A stretch of DNA of 15,586 bases from an uncultured Clostridia bacterium (GTDB taxonomy: Bacteria > Bacillota > Clostridia > Oscillospirales > Ruminococcaceae). Position 1 is the first letter of the stretch; every line of letters begins with the position of its first letter. Positions 4,683-12,967 of this stretch are shown in pieces. A program made the translations under genes and the position numbers. Under the pieces are notes generated by a model, which saw nothing but the letters and a program-made list of their open reading frames with translations, did not search any database and was not told the origin of the DNA. Location of the stretch: the NCBI GenBank assembly GCA_937901805.1, contig CALDJI010000119.1, positions 1-15,586 on the forward strand. Reading direction: 5' to 3'.

Positions 4683-4755
4683 GGAGCGGATAGCGGGAAT
4701 CGAACCCGTAACCTCAGCTTGGGAAGCTAATATTTTACCATTAAACTATATCCGC
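4682..4755 (-). tRNA. tRNA-Gly (anticodon CCC)
   Basis: The minus strand folds as a 74-nt cloverleaf. The acceptor arm is GCGGATA/TATCCGC, the D arm GTTT-AATGGTA-AAAT, and the anticodon arm TTAGC-TTCCCAA-GCTGA with anticodon CCC. The T arm contains GGGTTCGATTCCC, followed by discriminator T and an encoded CCA. One outer T-stem position (A-C) is unpaired. It resembles other bacterial tRNA-Gly genes, differing from the usual TCC isoacceptor in the anticodon loop. It would read GGG glycine codons. It stands alone with its own promoter and terminator. Confidence 0.93.
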
Positions 4756-6258: not shown

Positions 6259-7077
6259 ATGTTTGAACTAAATAAAAAAAGAACCAGCGATGATGTTGAT
6301 CTTCTGTTTTCTGATTGGTATGACGATATGACTTTGCTTGCTCTGGAAGAAGGAAAAACAGATGCACATATCTATGTGGACAATTTGAATTTTGCCCATG
6401 TCGCGATTATCCTTCGTGGTTTCCGTATGAGAATTGCCGGCGATCCGTTGGATAAAAGTGTTGTAGAATCTGTAGAAGAATTTTTTAACACTGTCTTAAT
6501 TGGAAATCAGGATCCTGATTTGCCAAAATACCTGATTATTTACTATCAGGAGCCCGAATGGCAGAACGTCCTGCTGGATATTCTCTCAAAACTCGATCCA
6601 AAATACTTTGCCCGTACTTATTTCCGCTTAAATATGCTGGATCATATTCCCGATGTCTCTCTGCCGGATGGGCATCATTTTGTGGATATTGAAGAAGTTT
6701 ACAATACCATGCAGGATTACGAAAATTATGACATTGTTGTACGGGAAATGCAGTCAGAGATCTCGACACCCGAAAATTTCTTGAAATACTGTTTTGGTGT
6801 TTGTACAGTCAAAGATCATACTATCACCGGATGGGCAATGGCCGAATATGTAAATCTTTCTGGATGTGAAGTCGGTTTCGGCGTTTCAGAAGGATATCAG
6901 GAGACAGAAAACACAGCTCCGGCTCTTATTGCTGAGTTTATGCGCAGAGCAAAAGATCGCGGCCTGCAATATGTAGGATGGAGCGGATATAAGCACAACA
7001 CATTTGGTTCTGAAGCAGTACAGGCTGCCGGAATGAAGCATACAAAAGATTATCCCTGCATTTATGCAGATCTATAA
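6259..7077 (+). CDS. GNAT-family N-acetyltransferase
   Basis: A 272-aa protein whose C-terminal half looks like a GCN5-related acetyltransferase that would transfer an acetyl group from acetyl-CoA to an unknown amine. KDHTITGWAMAEYVNLSGCE and VGFGVSEGYQETENTAPALI form the central strands and acetyl-CoA region. They are followed by AEFMRRAKDRGLQYVGWSGY and HNTFGSEAVQAAGMKHTKDY, the closing strand-helix pattern with an xxN..S..A..AGF-like end. The N-terminal half (VDLLFSDWYDDMTLLALEEG, IIYYQEPEWQNVLLDIL) is typical of the longer two-domain GNAT_acetyltran group. The ATG at 6259 has AGGAGGAATCGAT upstream; an in-frame TTG at 6238 has no such site. No disruption is seen. Confidence 0.75.
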   Translation: MFELNKKRTSDDVDLLFSDWYDDMTLLALEEGKTDAHIYVDNLNFAHVAIILRGFRMRIAGDPLDKSVVESVEEFFNTVLIGNQDPDLPKYLIIYYQEPEWQNVLLDILSKLDPKYFARTYFRLNMLDHIPDVSLPDGHHFVDIEEVYNTMQDYENYDIVVREMQSEISTPENFLKYCFGVCTVKDHTITGWAMAEYVNLSGCEVGFGVSEGYQETENTAPALIAEFMRRAKDRGLQYVGWSGYKHNTFGSEAVQAAGMKHTKDYPCIYADL

Positions 7078-7090
7078 TCAAAAAAACAAA

Positions 7091-7128
7091 ATCCCCTCCT
7101 GTTTAAAAAAAGCAGGAGGGGATTTTTA
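7091..7128 (+). terminator. Terminator of the acetyltransferase
   Basis: ATCCCCTCCTG (7091-7101) pairs with CAGGAGGGGAT (7113-7123) and is followed by TTTTA. It starts 13 nt after the acetyltransferase stop. Because an A-run precedes it, it can also work on the minus strand. Confidence 0.9.
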
Positions 7129-7131
7129 TCA

Positions 7132-7165
7132 AAAAAGGGAGCCTTTTGAAAAAGGCCCCCTTTTT
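7132..7165 (-). terminator. Terminator of the decarboxylase beta/gamma operon
   Basis: A 16-bp hairpin with one mismatch joins AAAAAGGGAGCCTTTT and AAAAGGCCCCCTTTTT, followed on the minus strand by a run of six T. It lies 6 nt beyond the stop of the small gamma-like gene. Confidence 0.85.
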
Positions 7166-7171
7166 ATTTTC

Positions 7172-7300
7172 CTATTTACTGGCAAATTTATTGAGCAATG
7201 TCATAATCAGAATAATCACAACAATGACAATGAAAATTCCCAGCATTCCCCAGCCCATAATGGGAAGAGAATTCAAAAATGCTCCGAAATCGATTTTCAT
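7172..7300 (-). CDS. Very short gamma-subunit-like membrane protein of a Na+-pumping decarboxylase
   Basis: A 42-residue protein, MKIDFGAFLNSLPIMGWGML followed by the hydrophobic run GIFIVIVVIILIMTLLNKF and then ASK. It has one transmembrane helix with a short polar tail. The gamma subunit (OadG type) anchors the decarboxylase complex to the membrane and usually has a longer tail; this one is little more than the anchor. The assignment rests on the single helix with its MGxGMxGIF motif and on its position 13 nt downstream of the beta-subunit gene. TAGGAGGAGAAC gives a strong ribosome site before the ATG at 7300. The operon terminator follows at once. Confidence 0.7.
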   Translation of the reverse strand: MKIDFGAFLNSLPIMGWGMLGIFIVIVVIILIMTLLNKFASK

Positions 7301-7313
7301 AGATGTTCTCCTC

Positions 7314-8427
7314 CTATCTGGCAACCAGGCTCAAAATTAAACCGCCCGCGATAACAGACGCAATCTGTCCCGAGACATTTGCGCCGACCGCATGCATCAA
7401 CAGGAAGTTTTGAGGATCCTCTTTCAAGCCCATTTTATGGATGACGCGCGCGGACATTGGGAATGCAGAAATACCTGCCGCACCTACCATTGGGTTAATC
7501 TTCTTTTTGGTAAACAGGTTGAGGAATTTCGCAAAGAACACACCGCCGACTGTATCAAAGATAAAGGCAATCAGACCAAGACCCATGATCAGCAGAGTCT
7601 CCGGAGTAAGGAAATATTCCGCCTGCATTTTTGTAGCAATCGTGATACCAAGTAAAAGGGTAACCAAATTGGCAAGCGCGTTCTGAGCAGTCTCGGAAAG
7701 AGAATTGAGCACGGATCAAGTTTCCAAACGTCAAAAAGCCAATCAGCGAAACAGAACGCGGAGCGACAATTCCCGCTACCATCGTAATCAAAATCGGGAA
7801 CAGGATTCTTGTCATTTTGGAGACGTTTTTCTGTTCATAAGGCATACGAATCATACGTTCTTTTTTGGTAGTGATTAAACGGATGACCGCCGGCTGTACA
7901 ATTGGAACCAGCGCCATATAAGAATAGGCGGCGACAATAATGGCGCCGATATACTTGGATTCGAAATAGTTCGCGGCAAAGATGGAAGTCGGACCGTCTG
8001 CCGCGCCGATAATACCAATAGAGGCAGCATCCCTGATATCAAACCCAAACAAAGACGCCAAGCTGATGGTAAAGAAAATACCAAACTGAGCCGCCGCGCC
8101 GAACAAAATCATTTTTGGATTGGAAAGAAGCGGGCCAAAGTCGATCATGGCTCCGATTCCGATGAAGAGCAAAAGCGGAAACAACTCATTTGCAATACCG
8201 CTGTTAAACAGGATGTCAATAACACCCTCTTCTGTGCCAGTATCATATGTTTGCGTGACCGCACCGGAAAGCGGAAGGTTGACAAGGATTGCTCCAAAGC
8301 CCATTGGCAGCAGCAACGTCGGTTCCATCTCTTTCTTGATTGCAAGATAGATTAGGATACCGCCAATGACCCACATGACCATTTGCTGCCAGGTAATGTT
8401 GAGTACATTTGAAAATAGATCTCCCAT
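7314..8427 (-). pseudogene. oadB: Na+-translocating decarboxylase beta subunit (OadB/GcdB family), frameshifted
   Basis: The beta subunit is the membrane Na+ channel of biotin-dependent decarboxylases, coupling decarboxylation of an oxo or CoA acid to Na+ export. The first frame gives about 238 residues: LIYLAIKKEMEPTLLLPMGF, FIGIGAMIDFGPLL and SIGIIGAADGPTSIFAANYF, where the Asp of ADGPT (about 144) is the family's key Na+ residue. It reaches LIGFLTFGNLIR. The second frame resumes with LNSLSETAQNALANLVTLLL and ends HAVGANVSGQIASVIAGG...SLVAR. Relatives read NLIRECGVLNSL here, so about 11 nt are missing near 7711-7714, probably between two GTG repeats. Restoring them gives 374 aa, the normal size. 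I chose the ATG at 8427 because AAGGA lies 8 nt upstream. No alpha or biotin-carrier subunit is in the window. Confidence 0.88.
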
Positions 8428-8516
8428 AAATCCCATCCTTCAGTTTAATTTTATCAATCAATCCAATAATCACAGAGAATGATTTTGGATTCATTTCCAT
8501 ACAGAGAAATCTCCGC

Positions 8517-8566
8517 AAAAAAAGACCTTTATGACAGGGTGCTCAAAGCAGCTGTCATAAAAGTCT
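8517..8566 (-). terminator. Riboswitch-controlled intrinsic terminator in the oadB leader
   Basis: On the minus strand AGACTTTTATGACAG (8566-8552) and CTGTCATAAAGGTCT (8537-8523) form a 15-bp stem with one mismatch and a 14-nt loop, followed by six T (8522-8517). Its 5' arm contains the 3' strand of the aptamer's closing helix (8563-8556). The two structures therefore exclude each other, the layout of an ON switch. It may also stop read-through from tetR. Confidence 0.85.
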
Positions 8567-8650
8567 CGCTTTTTAAAGTATGTGCAGATTTTTACAAAAT
8601 CGGTATGGTGCGACATACTACGGAGCATCCGCAAGCTACTCCCCTTTATG
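8556..8650 (-). promoter_or_regulatory. yybP-ykoY-type (Mn2+) riboswitch aptamer upstream of oadB
   Basis: The minus-strand leader contains CATAAAGGGGAGTAGCTT (8650-8633), carrying the AAAGGGGAGUAGC signature of the yybP-ykoY aptamer. The fold follows the known one. P1 is CATAAAGG/CTTTTATG, loop L1 is GGAGTA facing GAGA, and an upper helix is GCTT/AAGC. The P2 hairpin is CGGA-TGC-TCCG. The P3 arm is GTATGT/ACATAC, with an asymmetric loop CGCACCATACC below GATTTT/AAAATC. Yybp-ykoY aptamers bind Mn2+ between L1 and the P3 loop and usually control Mn2+ exporters. The P3 loop differs somewhat from the consensus, so ligand identity is less certain than class. Ligand-stabilised P1 would block the terminator and turn on the genes downstream. 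Confidence 0.8.
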
Positions 8651-8681
8651 AAAAGATGTTTGCTTTTTCTTAACAAAACAA

Positions 8682-8710
8682 ATTATATCGGTTCCGAACA
8701 AACTTGTCAA
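8682..8710 (-). promoter_or_regulatory. Perfect consensus sigma-A promoter of the riboswitch-oadB operon
   Basis: TTGACA (8705-8710), a 17-nt spacer and TATAAT (8682-8687) on the minus strand match the consensus at every hexamer position. Transcription would start near 8675, giving a leader of about 250 nt that holds the aptamer and terminator. A consensus promoter fits control exerted after initiation. Confidence 0.93.
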
Positions 8711-8721
8711 GAAAATTGTTT

Positions 8722-9207
8722 CTAAAATGCCTCTCCAATAAACGGGGCGGATTGCTGACTTTTTGCTTTTTCCGGATTTAATAATCCCTCAAAAATCACC
8801 TGCAGTATTTTTATACATTCTTCCTGGTAGCAAAAGGCCCCGTTTTCATGTACCCAAAGCAGGCTTATCCCATTCATGGCATAGATAATTGTCTCTACAA
8901 TATCTTCTGCCTTCAGAGTATTGATAATTTTCCCCGATAACTGTGCTTTTTGAATTAAATACACATAGTTTTTCCACTGTGCCGCATGATGCGGCGTAAT
9001 TTTTTCCACTCCGCGATCCGCATGACGTTTGAGCGCTATCCGTAAAATTTCCGGGCCCAGATCCGCAATATAATCCAAAAATATTCGGACAATTTTCTGA
9101 AACAGCTGACGGCAAATATCCGTAACCGAAACGTTGCGGTATCCCTTTTGGCGGATCATACCGACCGCCGTATTGACAATTTTACTCCTTGTGCTCTGTT
9201 CAGCCAT
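8722..9207 (-). CDS. TetR-family regulator lacking its DNA-recognition helix
   Basis: A 161-aa protein. Its start, TRSKIVNTAVGMIRQKGYRN followed by VSVTDICRQ, is the first two helices of a TetR DNA-binding domain. The next residues should be the turn and recognition helix (AGVSxxTFYxYFxSKxxL type), but ICRQ runs straight into LFQKIVRIFLDYIADLGPEI, the ligand-binding domain. About 35-40 residues seem lost in frame (junction after residue 34, nt about 9105), since relatives are near 200 aa. The remainder reads cleanly to GLLNPEKAKS. The ATG at 9207 has AGGGAG upstream. It is divergent from the dehydrogenase gene and probably controls it and itself. As printed it should dimerise but not bind DNA normally. 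Confidence 0.85.
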   Translation of the reverse strand: MAEQSTRSKIVNTAVGMIRQKGYRNVSVTDICRQLFQKIVRIFLDYIADLGPEILRIALKRHADRGVEKITPHHAAQWKNYVYLIQKAQLSGKIINTLKAEDIVETIIYAMNGISLLWVHENGAFCYQEECIKILQVIFEGLLNPEKAKSQQSAPFIGEAF

Positions 9208-9230
9208 AATTTCATCTCCCTATTCCCTGC

Positions 9231-9260
9231 ATTATACCCCAAAGCCCTGGGAATCCGCAA
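9231..9260 (-). promoter_or_regulatory. Promoter of the tetR-type gene
   Basis: Minus-strand TTGCGG (9255-9260) and TATAAT (9231-9236) with an 18-nt spacer, 23 nt before the start codon. It is back to back with the dehydrogenase promoter. Confidence 0.7.
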
Positions 9261-9307
9261 GTTTTCCTTTTGCTTATAATTTTTACTTATTTTAAATCGA
9301 TGAATAT

Positions 9308-9336
9308 TTAACAAAGTCTATATTCTGTGCTATAAC
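9308..9336 (+). promoter_or_regulatory. Promoter of the short-chain dehydrogenase
   Basis: TTAACA (9308-9313), 17 nt, then TATAAC (9331-9336), each 5 of 6 to consensus and with an extended -10 (TGCTATAAC). The start site would fall near 9343, inside the palindrome that follows. Confidence 0.85.
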
Positions 9337-9337
9337 A

Positions 9338-9358
9338 AAACTATACACTATACAGTTT
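9338..9358. promoter_or_regulatory. Candidate operator of the TetR-type regulator
   Basis: A 21-bp imperfect palindrome centred on 9348 has AAACT/AGTTT outer arms and matches at 16 of 20 non-central positions. It lies over the predicted start site of the dehydrogenase transcript. It also contains a tandem ACTATAC repeat (9340-9353). Location between divergent regulator and target is typical for TetR operators. Confidence 0.6.
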
Positions 9359-9401
9359 CGTATTTCTGTTTCGATTACCTTACTAGAGAGGAGAATTTTT
9401 T

Positions 9402-11386: not shown

Positions 11387-12967
11387 ATGTCCTATAACAG
11401 GAAGACAAAAAGTGAAACAAGACACACACTGGAACTGATCGGAAAAATCAGGCTCCCCTTACTGCTGAAGGCAGCTCTCATCGGAGCCGGAGGCGGATTG
11501 ATCGTCTGCTCGTTCCGATACCTGCTCTCTCAATCGGAGACCTTCGTCCGCAGTGTATTCCATTTTATACGCGGACATCTGATCTGGCTGCCGCTTTTAT
11601 TCCTTTCCTATCTTGGGATTGGGCTGTTGGTTGGGTGGATTGTCAAATCCGAACCCATGATCAAGGGCAGCGGTATCCCACAGGTAGAAGGACAGTTGAT
11701 AGGTGCTTTTCACATCAACTGGCTGCCGGCCTTGCTAAAAAAATACTTGGGCGGACTGCTGTCCATTGGCTCCGGGTTGTTCCTCGGAAGAGAAGGCCCC
11801 TCTATTCAGCTTGGCGCCCTATCCGGCCAAGGCGTCGCCGATTTTCTGCACTGCCCGGACTATGAGAAAAAAATCCTAATCACTTGCGGAGCAAGCGCCG
11901 GGCTTTCCGCGGCCTTCAGCGCCCCGCTGGCAGGCGTTCTGTTTGCGTTGGAGGAAATCCATAAAAATTTTTCCAGCGTTATTCTGCTGACTTCCATGGT
12001 GTCTTCGGTCTGTGCATCTGTGGTTGCGGGAATCCTGTTTGGGACAACGCCAAGCCTTTATGTCGGGCAGCTTTCCCCGCTGCCGGTGAACCTCTATCTT
12101 CTGGTCGCACTGCTTGGGGTTGCCCTTGGTCTGTTTGGATTCCTTTACAACCGGATACTGCTGAAAACACAGTCTCTATATGCAAAAATCCGCCGGTTTA
12201 CGCCCTTTTCTCAAATCCTGATCCCATTCCTGCTGCTGATCCCAGTAGGACTGCTTTTCCCGCAGCTGCTGGGCGGCGGACACCACATTATCACCCTGCT
12301 GGAGACGCAGTCTTTCCCGCTTGCTACCCTGCTGCTCTATCTGGCTGTACGGTTTCTTTTCTCCATGATTTCCTACGGCGGCGGAGCGCCCGGCGGAATC
12401 TTCCTCCCCTTGCTTGCCCTAGGCGCTTGTTTTGGCGCACTATTCGGAAACAGTGCGCAGCTGATCCTGGGTTTTGAAAAGACTTATGTCCTCAATTTTA
12501 TCGTCTTTGCTATGGCGGGATTTCTAACTGCCGTTGTACGCTCCCCGATTACGGCAAGTATCCTGATTACCGAAATGAGCGGCAGTTTCCGCAATTTTCT
12601 GCCCGTGATCCTGGTCTGCCTGCTCGCCTATGTAACCGCACAGCTTTTACCCGAACAGCCCATCTACGAATCTTTGCTGCAGAGAATGCTCCCAAAACAT
12701 CAGCGGCCCTATAATTCTACAGGCAAAGAAATTATTGAACTAACTGTAGAGCCTGGCAGTTACATGGAGCACATGCGAATCAGAGAGCTTGTCCTGCCGA
12801 GGGAAAGCCTGTTGGTTGCGATTCACCGAGGTTCCCTGGAAATAATTCCGAAAGGAGATACGATGTTGGAAGCCCAGGACAATTTGATCGTGCTGACAGA
12901 CGGTGCCTTTCTGAATGAAGTGCGATCCAAGTTGGAAAGCGCAGCAACCGGATCCTCTGTTTCCTGA
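11387..12967 (+). CDS. clcA: ClC-family chloride/proton antiporter with a C-terminal TrkA-C-like domain
   Basis: A 526-aa membrane protein that probably exchanges chloride for protons, as in acid-stress ClC proteins. The chloride filter motifs are all present: GSGIP (94-98), GREGPSIQLG (from 134, with gating Glu136) and GGIFLP (336-341). The Tyr in PEQPIYESLL (Tyr427) is in place too. The inner proton glutamate position is Glu in LFALEEIHKNF (189-190), which favours an antiporter over a channel. From about residue 445 a soluble tail, ELTVEPGSYMEHMRIREL followed by DNLIVLTDGAFLNEVRSKL, looks like a TrkA-C/RCK_C domain that may bind a regulatory ligand. The start ATG has AAAGGTG 9 nt upstream. 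The gene is intact, unlike many neighbours. Confidence 0.92.
   Translation: MSYNRKTKSETRHTLELIGKIRLPLLLKAALIGAGGGLIVCSFRYLLSQSETFVRSVFHFIRGHLIWLPLLFLSYLGIGLLVGWIVKSEPMIKGSGIPQVEGQLIGAFHINWLPALLKKYLGGLLSIGSGLFLGREGPSIQLGALSGQGVADFLHCPDYEKKILITCGASAGLSAAFSAPLAGVLFALEEIHKNFSSVILLTSMVSSVCASVVAGILFGTTPSLYVGQLSPLPVNLYLLVALLGVALGLFGFLYNRILLKTQSLYAKIRRFTPFSQILIPFLLLIPVGLLFPQLLGGGHHIITLLETQSFPLATLLLYLAVRFLFSMISYGGGAPGGIFLPLLALGACFGALFGNSAQLILGFEKTYVLNFIVFAMAGFLTAVVRSPITASILITEMSGSFRNFLPVILVCLLAYVTAQLLPEQPIYESLLQRMLPKHQRPYNSTGKEIIELTVEPGSYMEHMRIRELVLPRESLLVAIHRGSLEIIPKGDTMLEAQDNLIVLTDGAFLNEVRSKLESAATGSSVS

Follow-up and report, generated by a model that had tools for sequence, protein, structure and literature searches.

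Mn2+ riboswitches are known from exporters. Their described representatives (Rfam RF00080; yoaB of L. lactis, X. oryzae, and mntP and alx of E. coli) have an L1 loop GGGAGUAGC, a GCRAGAC segment and an invariant adenosine in loop L3, all of which recur in the leader analysed here. According to the accessible part of PMC6754395, Mn2+ is contacted by the N7 of this adenosine, A41 in L. lactis and A48 in X. oryzae. In L. lactis, Mn2+ holds helix P1.1 and prevents termination (excerpts of PMC11087558 and PMC9190785), and the alx and mntP switches of E. coli both respond to Mn2+ (excerpt of PMC9603457). One review describes Mn2+ riboswitches as OFF switches (excerpt of PMC11477304). A different RNA, the Na+-I riboswitch (DUF1646 motif), likewise stands before oxaloacetate decarboxylase genes in other bacteria, where it is ion-responsive and activating (excerpt of PMC9337991); it is absent from the Rfam matches in the window.

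The stretch of DNA that we analysed, 15,586 nucleotides from an uncultured Clostridia bacterium and here called the window, has a leader of the Mn2+ kind before oadB, a gene of the Na+-translocating decarboxylase beta subunit family. From sequence comparison we consider it very probable that this leader is a Mn2+-type ON riboswitch controlling a sodium-pump module of OadB and a small gamma subunit (mini-gamma). Its P1.1 switch helix, and a terminator that shares the 3' strand of P1, are the same as in known Mn2+ riboswitches (PMC11087558 and PMC6754395, each in part). Unlike those, the oadB leaders score below the RF00080 cut-off and would control an OadB module; in addition, 19 of the 23 leaders in our alignment A1, the window's among them, have by eye no insert able to form P4.

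We found no report of oadB with a riboswitch in the literature searched, and an earlier mention may exist in subscription papers such as the founding ones of 2015. A search combining yybP-ykoY with oxaloacetate decarboxylase returned only the Na+ riboswitch paper, the accessible part of which places the decarboxylase under another RNA class (PMC9337991). The presence of the leader before oadB, in the window and in many related Clostridia, suggests that the handling of manganese and that of sodium are connected in a way yet to be explored. If a sodium-pump module is truly a frequent target of Mn2+ switches in Clostridia, Mn2+ homeostasis would be tied to the Na+ cycle.

Leader, terminator and genes in the window

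On the minus strand of the window, a consensus promoter, the aptamer, a terminator, oadB and a mini-gamma gene follow one another in a row.

8682..8710, minus strand: putative promoter (-35 TTGACA at 8710-8705, 17-nt spacer, -10 TATAAT at 8687-8682)
8556..8649, minus strand: yybP-ykoY-type aptamer (match to covariance model R2; covariation in 23 aligned leaders)
8649-8643 with 8563-8557, minus strand: aptamer helix P1.1
8642-8637, minus strand: aptamer loop L1, GGAGUA
8636-8635 with 8569-8568, minus strand: aptamer helix P1.2; P2, then P3 with L3, also lie in the aptamer
8602..8608, minus strand: L3 core CCAUACC, the A at 8606 aligning with A41 (L. lactis) and A48 (X. oryzae)
8517..8565, minus strand: predicted intrinsic terminator, from fold and sequence; the P1 3' strand lies in its 5' arm, and seven U follow
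7314..8436, minus strand: oadB, Na+-translocating decarboxylase beta subunit family (PF03977, TIGR01109), frame broken near 7712
7172..7300, minus strand: mini-gamma ORF, 42 aa, OadG-related small subunit (NF040909)

The promoter matches the consensus at 12 of 12 positions and is the sole site to do so in 7000-9400, a region in which 7 promoter-like sites were found against 5.6 expected. An ORF of 161 residues (8722-9207), also on the minus strand, terminates immediately upstream of it; its sole profile match, to an autoregulator-binding factor, lies below the cut-off. Both structural hallmarks of the aptamer, the L1 loop and the 3' GCRAGAC that closes P1, are present in the window and conserved in A1. 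The terminator reads GACUUUUAUGACAG...CUGUCAUAAAGGUC followed by seven U and, as it contains the P1 3' strand (8563-8557), P1 and terminator are mutually exclusive. The leader as a whole (8670-8505) folds at -53.6 kcal/mol (z = -4.72), lower than all of 200 shuffles. This low energy is owed to the terminator; the aptamer part by itself (8655-8560) folds no better than shuffled sequence (z = -0.58, 44 of 200 shuffles as good).

An earlier note on this DNA had described a perfect consensus promoter, a complete yybP-ykoY-like aptamer and a terminator sharing the P1 3' strand, and all three descriptions hold; for the aptamer this is confirmed by R2, a model built without the window, which gives the leader 74.8 bits (E = 9e-17). 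The note's further claim, of a leader followed by an oadB/gamma pair, is right as to gene order, but the oadB frame of the window is broken. Of its two pieces, the one in frame 8436-7555 corresponds to positions 2-227 of the TIGR01109 profile and the one in frame 7712-7314 to positions 232-353, and PF03977 and TIGR01109 match both pieces as well as the intact OadB of a relative (L027). Compared with another relative (L002), an 11-base stretch is absent near 7712 (7700-7712), causing a frameshift; therefore the output may be lost in this sequence, or the assembly may be wrong. Judged by eye from relatives and from a ribosome-binding-like AAGGA, the start of oadB is more likely at 8427 than at 8436. 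The mini-gamma product, queried without its last residue, matches NF040909 with 25.3 bits (cut-off 25, E = 1.1e-5). Inspection of the ORFs of the window by eye revealed no alpha subunit or biotin carrier. Elsewhere the window holds a tRNA gene (4685-4755, minus strand, 62.9 bits) and a ClC-type chloride channel with a TrkA-C domain (11387-12967, plus strand).

From sequence and homology, the switch would work as follows. A metal bound between L1 and L3, with A 8606 as the Mn2+-selective contact, would hold P1.1 together (8649-8643 with 8563-8557). By the base pairing, strand 8563-8557 would then be kept out of the terminator (8565-8517) and the polymerase would continue into oadB and mini-gamma, while with no ligand the terminator would form. 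This P1/terminator pairing speaks for an ON switch, contrary to the OFF behaviour given in the review. The P1 strand is shared with the terminator in 26 of 29 leaders inspected. The terminator pattern was passed by 27 of the 29, of which one (L012) was discounted by eye as too weak; of the other exceptions, L047 has no terminator and L030 no P1 3' strand found in the slice.

Class membership and distribution of the leader

A scan for OadB yielded 80 loci (L001-L080), three of which (L041, L068 and L070) have no OadB ORF and were omitted from the counts. Of the remainder, 72 offer 400 nt or more of sequence upstream of the OadB ORF, and in 28 of these 72 oadB is immediately preceded by the leader, so that the conservation in relatives on which the earlier note had made its proposal depend is indeed found. 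No leader was detected directly before oadB in the other 44 same-clade loci, and since many of the relatives' records are metagenome bins, such absences carry little weight. The note had also considered that a Mn2+ exporter might normally lie between leader and oadB. This is the case in one locus, L023, where leader, mntP, oadB and mini-gamma follow in a row, but not in the 28 loci with the leader directly before oadB; a motif scan of the 80 loci, covering the MntP family alone, found no intervening mntP beyond L023.

In A1, which comprises 23 aligned leaders, RNAalifold agrees with a count of the named pairs on 28 pairs, and in 20 of these both partners vary. The proportion of cells that are paired is 92.0% against 75.3% after shuffling, and the covariation score is 0.512 against 0.203 (sd 0.015), with none of 500 shuffles as high. 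Slid out of register, the structure scores at most 0.135, a comparison in which the true register has an advantage, the structure having been derived from A1 itself.

Two covariance models were built, R1 from 23 oadB leaders (that of the window and 22 others, these 22 being among the 28 loci above, with six outside R1) and R2 from 90 R1 matches in other genomes, with the window excluded. In 24 kb of E. coli K-12, R1 has two matches at E <= 10, one on the alx leader (23.9 bits, E = 0.0005) and one on the mntP leader (23.5 bits, E = 0.0006). R2 likewise finds both.

RF00080, the check that had been proposed for the window, finds nothing at E <= 10 in the 301 bases searched (8420-8720), its cut-off being 45 bits. 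The result does not discriminate, as the same model also misses mntP leaders of relatives. The cut-off is reached at none of 20 oadB leader loci, and in 10 of these, searched at E <= 10, there is one weak match (L049, 24.1 bits, E = 0.011). None of nine mntP leader loci of related genomes is matched at E <= 1; the 20 related-genome loci that include these nine yielded one match, to a P-type ATPase leader (18.5 bits). Even in E. coli, RF00080 gives the mntP leader 41.6 bits, below the cut-off, and alx is absent from its results at E <= 0.1. Four whole genomes with an oadB leader contain two weak matches, both in one genome, and of 14 control genomes nine have matches, above the cut-off in two. 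In view of these results, the miss in the window is a statement on the model more than on the RNA. R2 matches 243 of 391 genomes of the class, and R1 matches 89 of 197 genomes in the order to which G001, the Bittarella genome with L017, belongs; set beside the 0 of 20 oadB and 0 of 9 mntP loci that reach the RF00080 cut-off, the reach of R2 suggests that RF00080 overlooks part of the class.

Only one Rfam family, RF02617 (SSRC10, Streptococcus sRNA 10), matches over the aptamer, with 36.0 bits against a cut-off of 56 (E = 0.0012). This family also matches the leaders of L003, L008, L027 and L079 and some mntP and ATPase leaders. Its consensus, a 113-nt model filed as an sRNA, shows similar L1, L3 and GCGAGAC elements, and we suspect that SSRC10 may itself be a leader of the Mn2+ class.

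We read the next gene for 176 matches. These consist of 90 R1 matches (30 loci and 60 fetched), taken mostly from the top of the list with some skipped, and 86 R2 matches (26 new loci and 60 fetched, with one repeat dropped) from a longer set. Counted by the product of the next gene, 46 matches stand before MntP, 40 before OadB, 38 before P-type ATPases, 33 before Na+/Ca2+ exchangers, five before CitMHS-type transporters and two before Na+/Pi transporters. The remaining 12 are other or unclear, and include one that is MntP-like (L268) and one weakly like a piece of a P-type ATPase (L240). Re-testing by blastp showed no disagreement for the 164 that were assigned, and ten examples were verified with Pfam. 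The proportions are biased, because the models start from oadB leaders and the matches were taken from the tops of the lists. Two genomes, G165 and G197, each have leaders before OadB, Na+/Ca2+ exchanger and MntP.

Several rarer arrangements were observed. In L196, L239, L243, L257 and L277 an ABC-transporter ATPase follows the leader at a distance of 59-229 nt (identified by Pfam for L196 and L277, by sequence likeness for the other three). Leaders also precede SPFH/Band-7 proteins (L198, L258) and a Kup-type K+ transporter (L234). Two leaders of the class stand in tandem in L237:85-318 (68.7 and 47.3 bits), and L175 (G493:C83) has two about 1.1 kb apart on the same strand.

The L3 loop and the signal sensed

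The column of A 8606 holds A in 23/23 rows of A1, 90/90 of A2 and 89/89 of A3, where A2 and A3 are model-fitted alignments and two matches are entered twice in A3, L229 being a repeat of L175. The L3 region of the window, GCA-CCAUACC-G, differs from the GCG-UCANUAC-G common among relatives, and the earlier note had taken its diverged P3 loop to leave open another ion as ligand. We do not find this borne out: the Mn2+-sensing A is kept, the odd pair (A-U for G-C, columns 47/80) is compensatory, and L107, a leader likewise before OadB, has a GCACCA core identical to that of the window. The window core CCAUACC is also close to the X. oryzae loop ACAUACU (excerpt of PMC6754395) and to the mntP-type loop AACAUAC. 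Given this compensatory pair, these similar loops and the shared core in L107, the P3 loop of the window lies within the range of the class.

The unusual L3, together with the frame-shifted oadB, could be read as the mark of a vestige, that is, of a leader before a decayed oadB that no longer has a function in this organism. We regard this as decidedly unlikely, as promoter and terminator are undamaged, and so are the pairings of P1, P2 and P3; the unusual base pair in L3 is compensatory, and the 11-base gap may be a fault of sequencing or assembly.

Across the class, L3 is of two main types that sort with the controlled gene, even inside one genome. The alx-like type, of which CGUCANNAC is the usual form and CGACA and CACCA are examples of variants, is found before OadB in 40/40 leaders, before the Na+/Ca2+ exchanger in 30/33 and before CitMHS-type genes in 5/5, rows that are related and were typed partly by eye. 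The mntP-like type (AACAUAC-like) is found in 44/46 MntP leaders (the MntP leaders L187 and L246 are intermediate), while P-type ATPase leaders divide into 26 mntP-like and 12 alx-like. The E. coli alx core, CGUCAUUACG, is that of the oadB leaders. Typing was by pattern and then by eye, which placed L098, L099, L102, L108, L121, L137, L269, L113 and L124 with the alx-like and L168 with the mntP-like leaders. The P1 3' strand often differs along with the L3 type (GACUUUUAU versus GACUCAUG).

That OadB, exchanger and CitMHS-type leaders have one L3 type and MntP leaders the other would fit with the former having changed their ligand and sensing Na+ or another monovalent ion, in keeping with the controlled Na+ pump, and so would the Na+-I riboswitches before oxaloacetate decarboxylase genes in other bacteria (PMC9337991, in part). 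Against this, the Mn2+-contacting A and the neighbouring C are invariant in A1, A2 and A3, the same L3 type occurs in E. coli alx, which responds to Mn2+ (excerpt of PMC9603457), and the L. lactis aptamer has a similar L3, UCAAUUC (excerpt of PMC6754395). A change of ligand to a monovalent ion therefore seems to us very improbable indeed.

The Rfam searches bear on the same point. Rfam 15, which we take to contain the Na+-I, Na+-II and Li+ riboswitch models, gave no match to these families, either across the whole window (E <= 1) or within 8420-8720 (E <= 10); the Na+ (DUF1646) and Li+ (nhaA) models had been named as a check in the earlier note. A Na+ riboswitch as an alternative control of leaderless oadB was likewise discarded, no Na+ or Li+ riboswitch being found in 20 such loci at the gathering threshold.

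A different refinement, compatible with Mn2+ sensing, is that the oadB switch resembles alx in having alkaline pH with basal Mn2+ as its main signal, Na+ cycling being important at high pH. E. coli alx responds to alkaline shock as well as Mn2+, and the mntP element of E. coli binds Mn2+ 17- to 22-fold more tightly at alkaline pH (both in the accessible part of PMC9603457); the L3 core is common to the oadB leaders and alx. However, alx-like L3 also occurs before Na+/Ca2+ exchangers and the 12 P-type ATPases, and we hold pH as the main signal to be possible, though on the unlikely side. For the Mn2+-type switch that we favour, raised Mn2+, possibly together with alkaline pH as for alx and mntP of E. 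coli, would induce the OadB/mini-gamma membrane module.

The OadB paralogue and its partners

The leader-type OadB resembles that of the Na+-translocating oxaloacetate decarboxylase: the intact L027 protein matches the beta chain 6iva with E = 2e-95, in addition to PF03977 and TIGR01109. We take 6iva to be the OadB of S. enterica. The motifs ADGPT, SYMALVP and NV-G--S, which presumably hold catalytic residues, are common to it and the leader-type OadB. The two nevertheless differ, as the leader-type proteins form a separate paralogue clade, usually with no alpha subunit nearby and with mini-gamma present. Among 30 genomes with a leader before OadB, 26 have two OadB, and in 19 of these 26 the second, of the separate clade, adjoins alpha, the other being under the leader. 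In a tree of 141 OadB, which contains six or so repeats, one branch with 100% local support separates 26 rows from 115 (which represent 109 distinct proteins). At 23 alignment positions each of the two sets is nearly uniform, but with a different residue. A mini-gamma homologue follows 111 of the 115 leader-type OadB (110 of 111 where at least 200 nt are available downstream), as against none of the 26 of the other clade. Where found in leader-bearing rows, gamma has at most 55 residues in 48 of 58. A sodium-pump module as a frequent target of Mn2+ switches would make the role of this widespread stand-alone paralogue testable.

Within the locus DNA examined, alpha occurs in two of 77 loci of L001-L080. 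In L051 and L071, alpha and biotin carrier precede the leader-type OadB, and in G037 leader, oadB, mini-gamma, alpha and biotin carrier form one run; these three cases rule out that the leader-type OadB never meets alpha. Somewhere in the genome an alpha match is present in 82 of 86 genomes with leader-type OadB, four having none at E <= 1e-60. Both 86 and 82 were counted by eye, taking at least 58% identity to the L027 OadB as the stand-alone type, and part of the alpha matches around E = 1e-125 to 1e-150 may represent fragments or pyruvate carboxylase.

These observations bear on whether OadB/mini-gamma might itself serve, without alpha and under the same Mn2+ switch, for Mn2+ efflux or Na+/Mn2+ exchange within a clostridial manganese regulon. 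Such a role would fit the company that the leader keeps, 164 of the 176 matches preceding MntP, OadB, P-type ATPase, Na+/Ca2+ exchanger, CitMHS-type or Na+/Pi transporter genes, and the mntP that adjoins the leader-type oadB in L023. It would also fit the separation of the switched clade, with its clade-specific positions, from OadB that are mostly beside alpha and biotin carrier, the shortness of gamma, the scarcity of alpha in the loci and the four genomes with no alpha match. On the other side stand the alpha matches in nearly all genomes, the alpha and carrier genes beside leader-type OadB in G037, L051 and L071, and the retention of the three 6iva motifs. MntP, moreover, is present in 29 of the 30 genomes with a leader before OadB (weakly in G037), so that no substitute exporter is needed; OadB as a replacement for MntP was ruled out on these grounds. 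We judge the transporter role unlikely, and the pump reading the more likely of the two because of alpha in 82 of 86 genomes and the G037 run with alpha and carrier.

For a sodium-pump module, alpha and biotin-carrier subunits of the decarboxylase would usually be supplied from elsewhere in the genome, and its induction would most likely serve to provide or rebuild the Na+ gradient during export of Mn2+ and related cations. Inside the leader-type OadB clade, gain and loss of the leader amount to 20 label changes on the tree.
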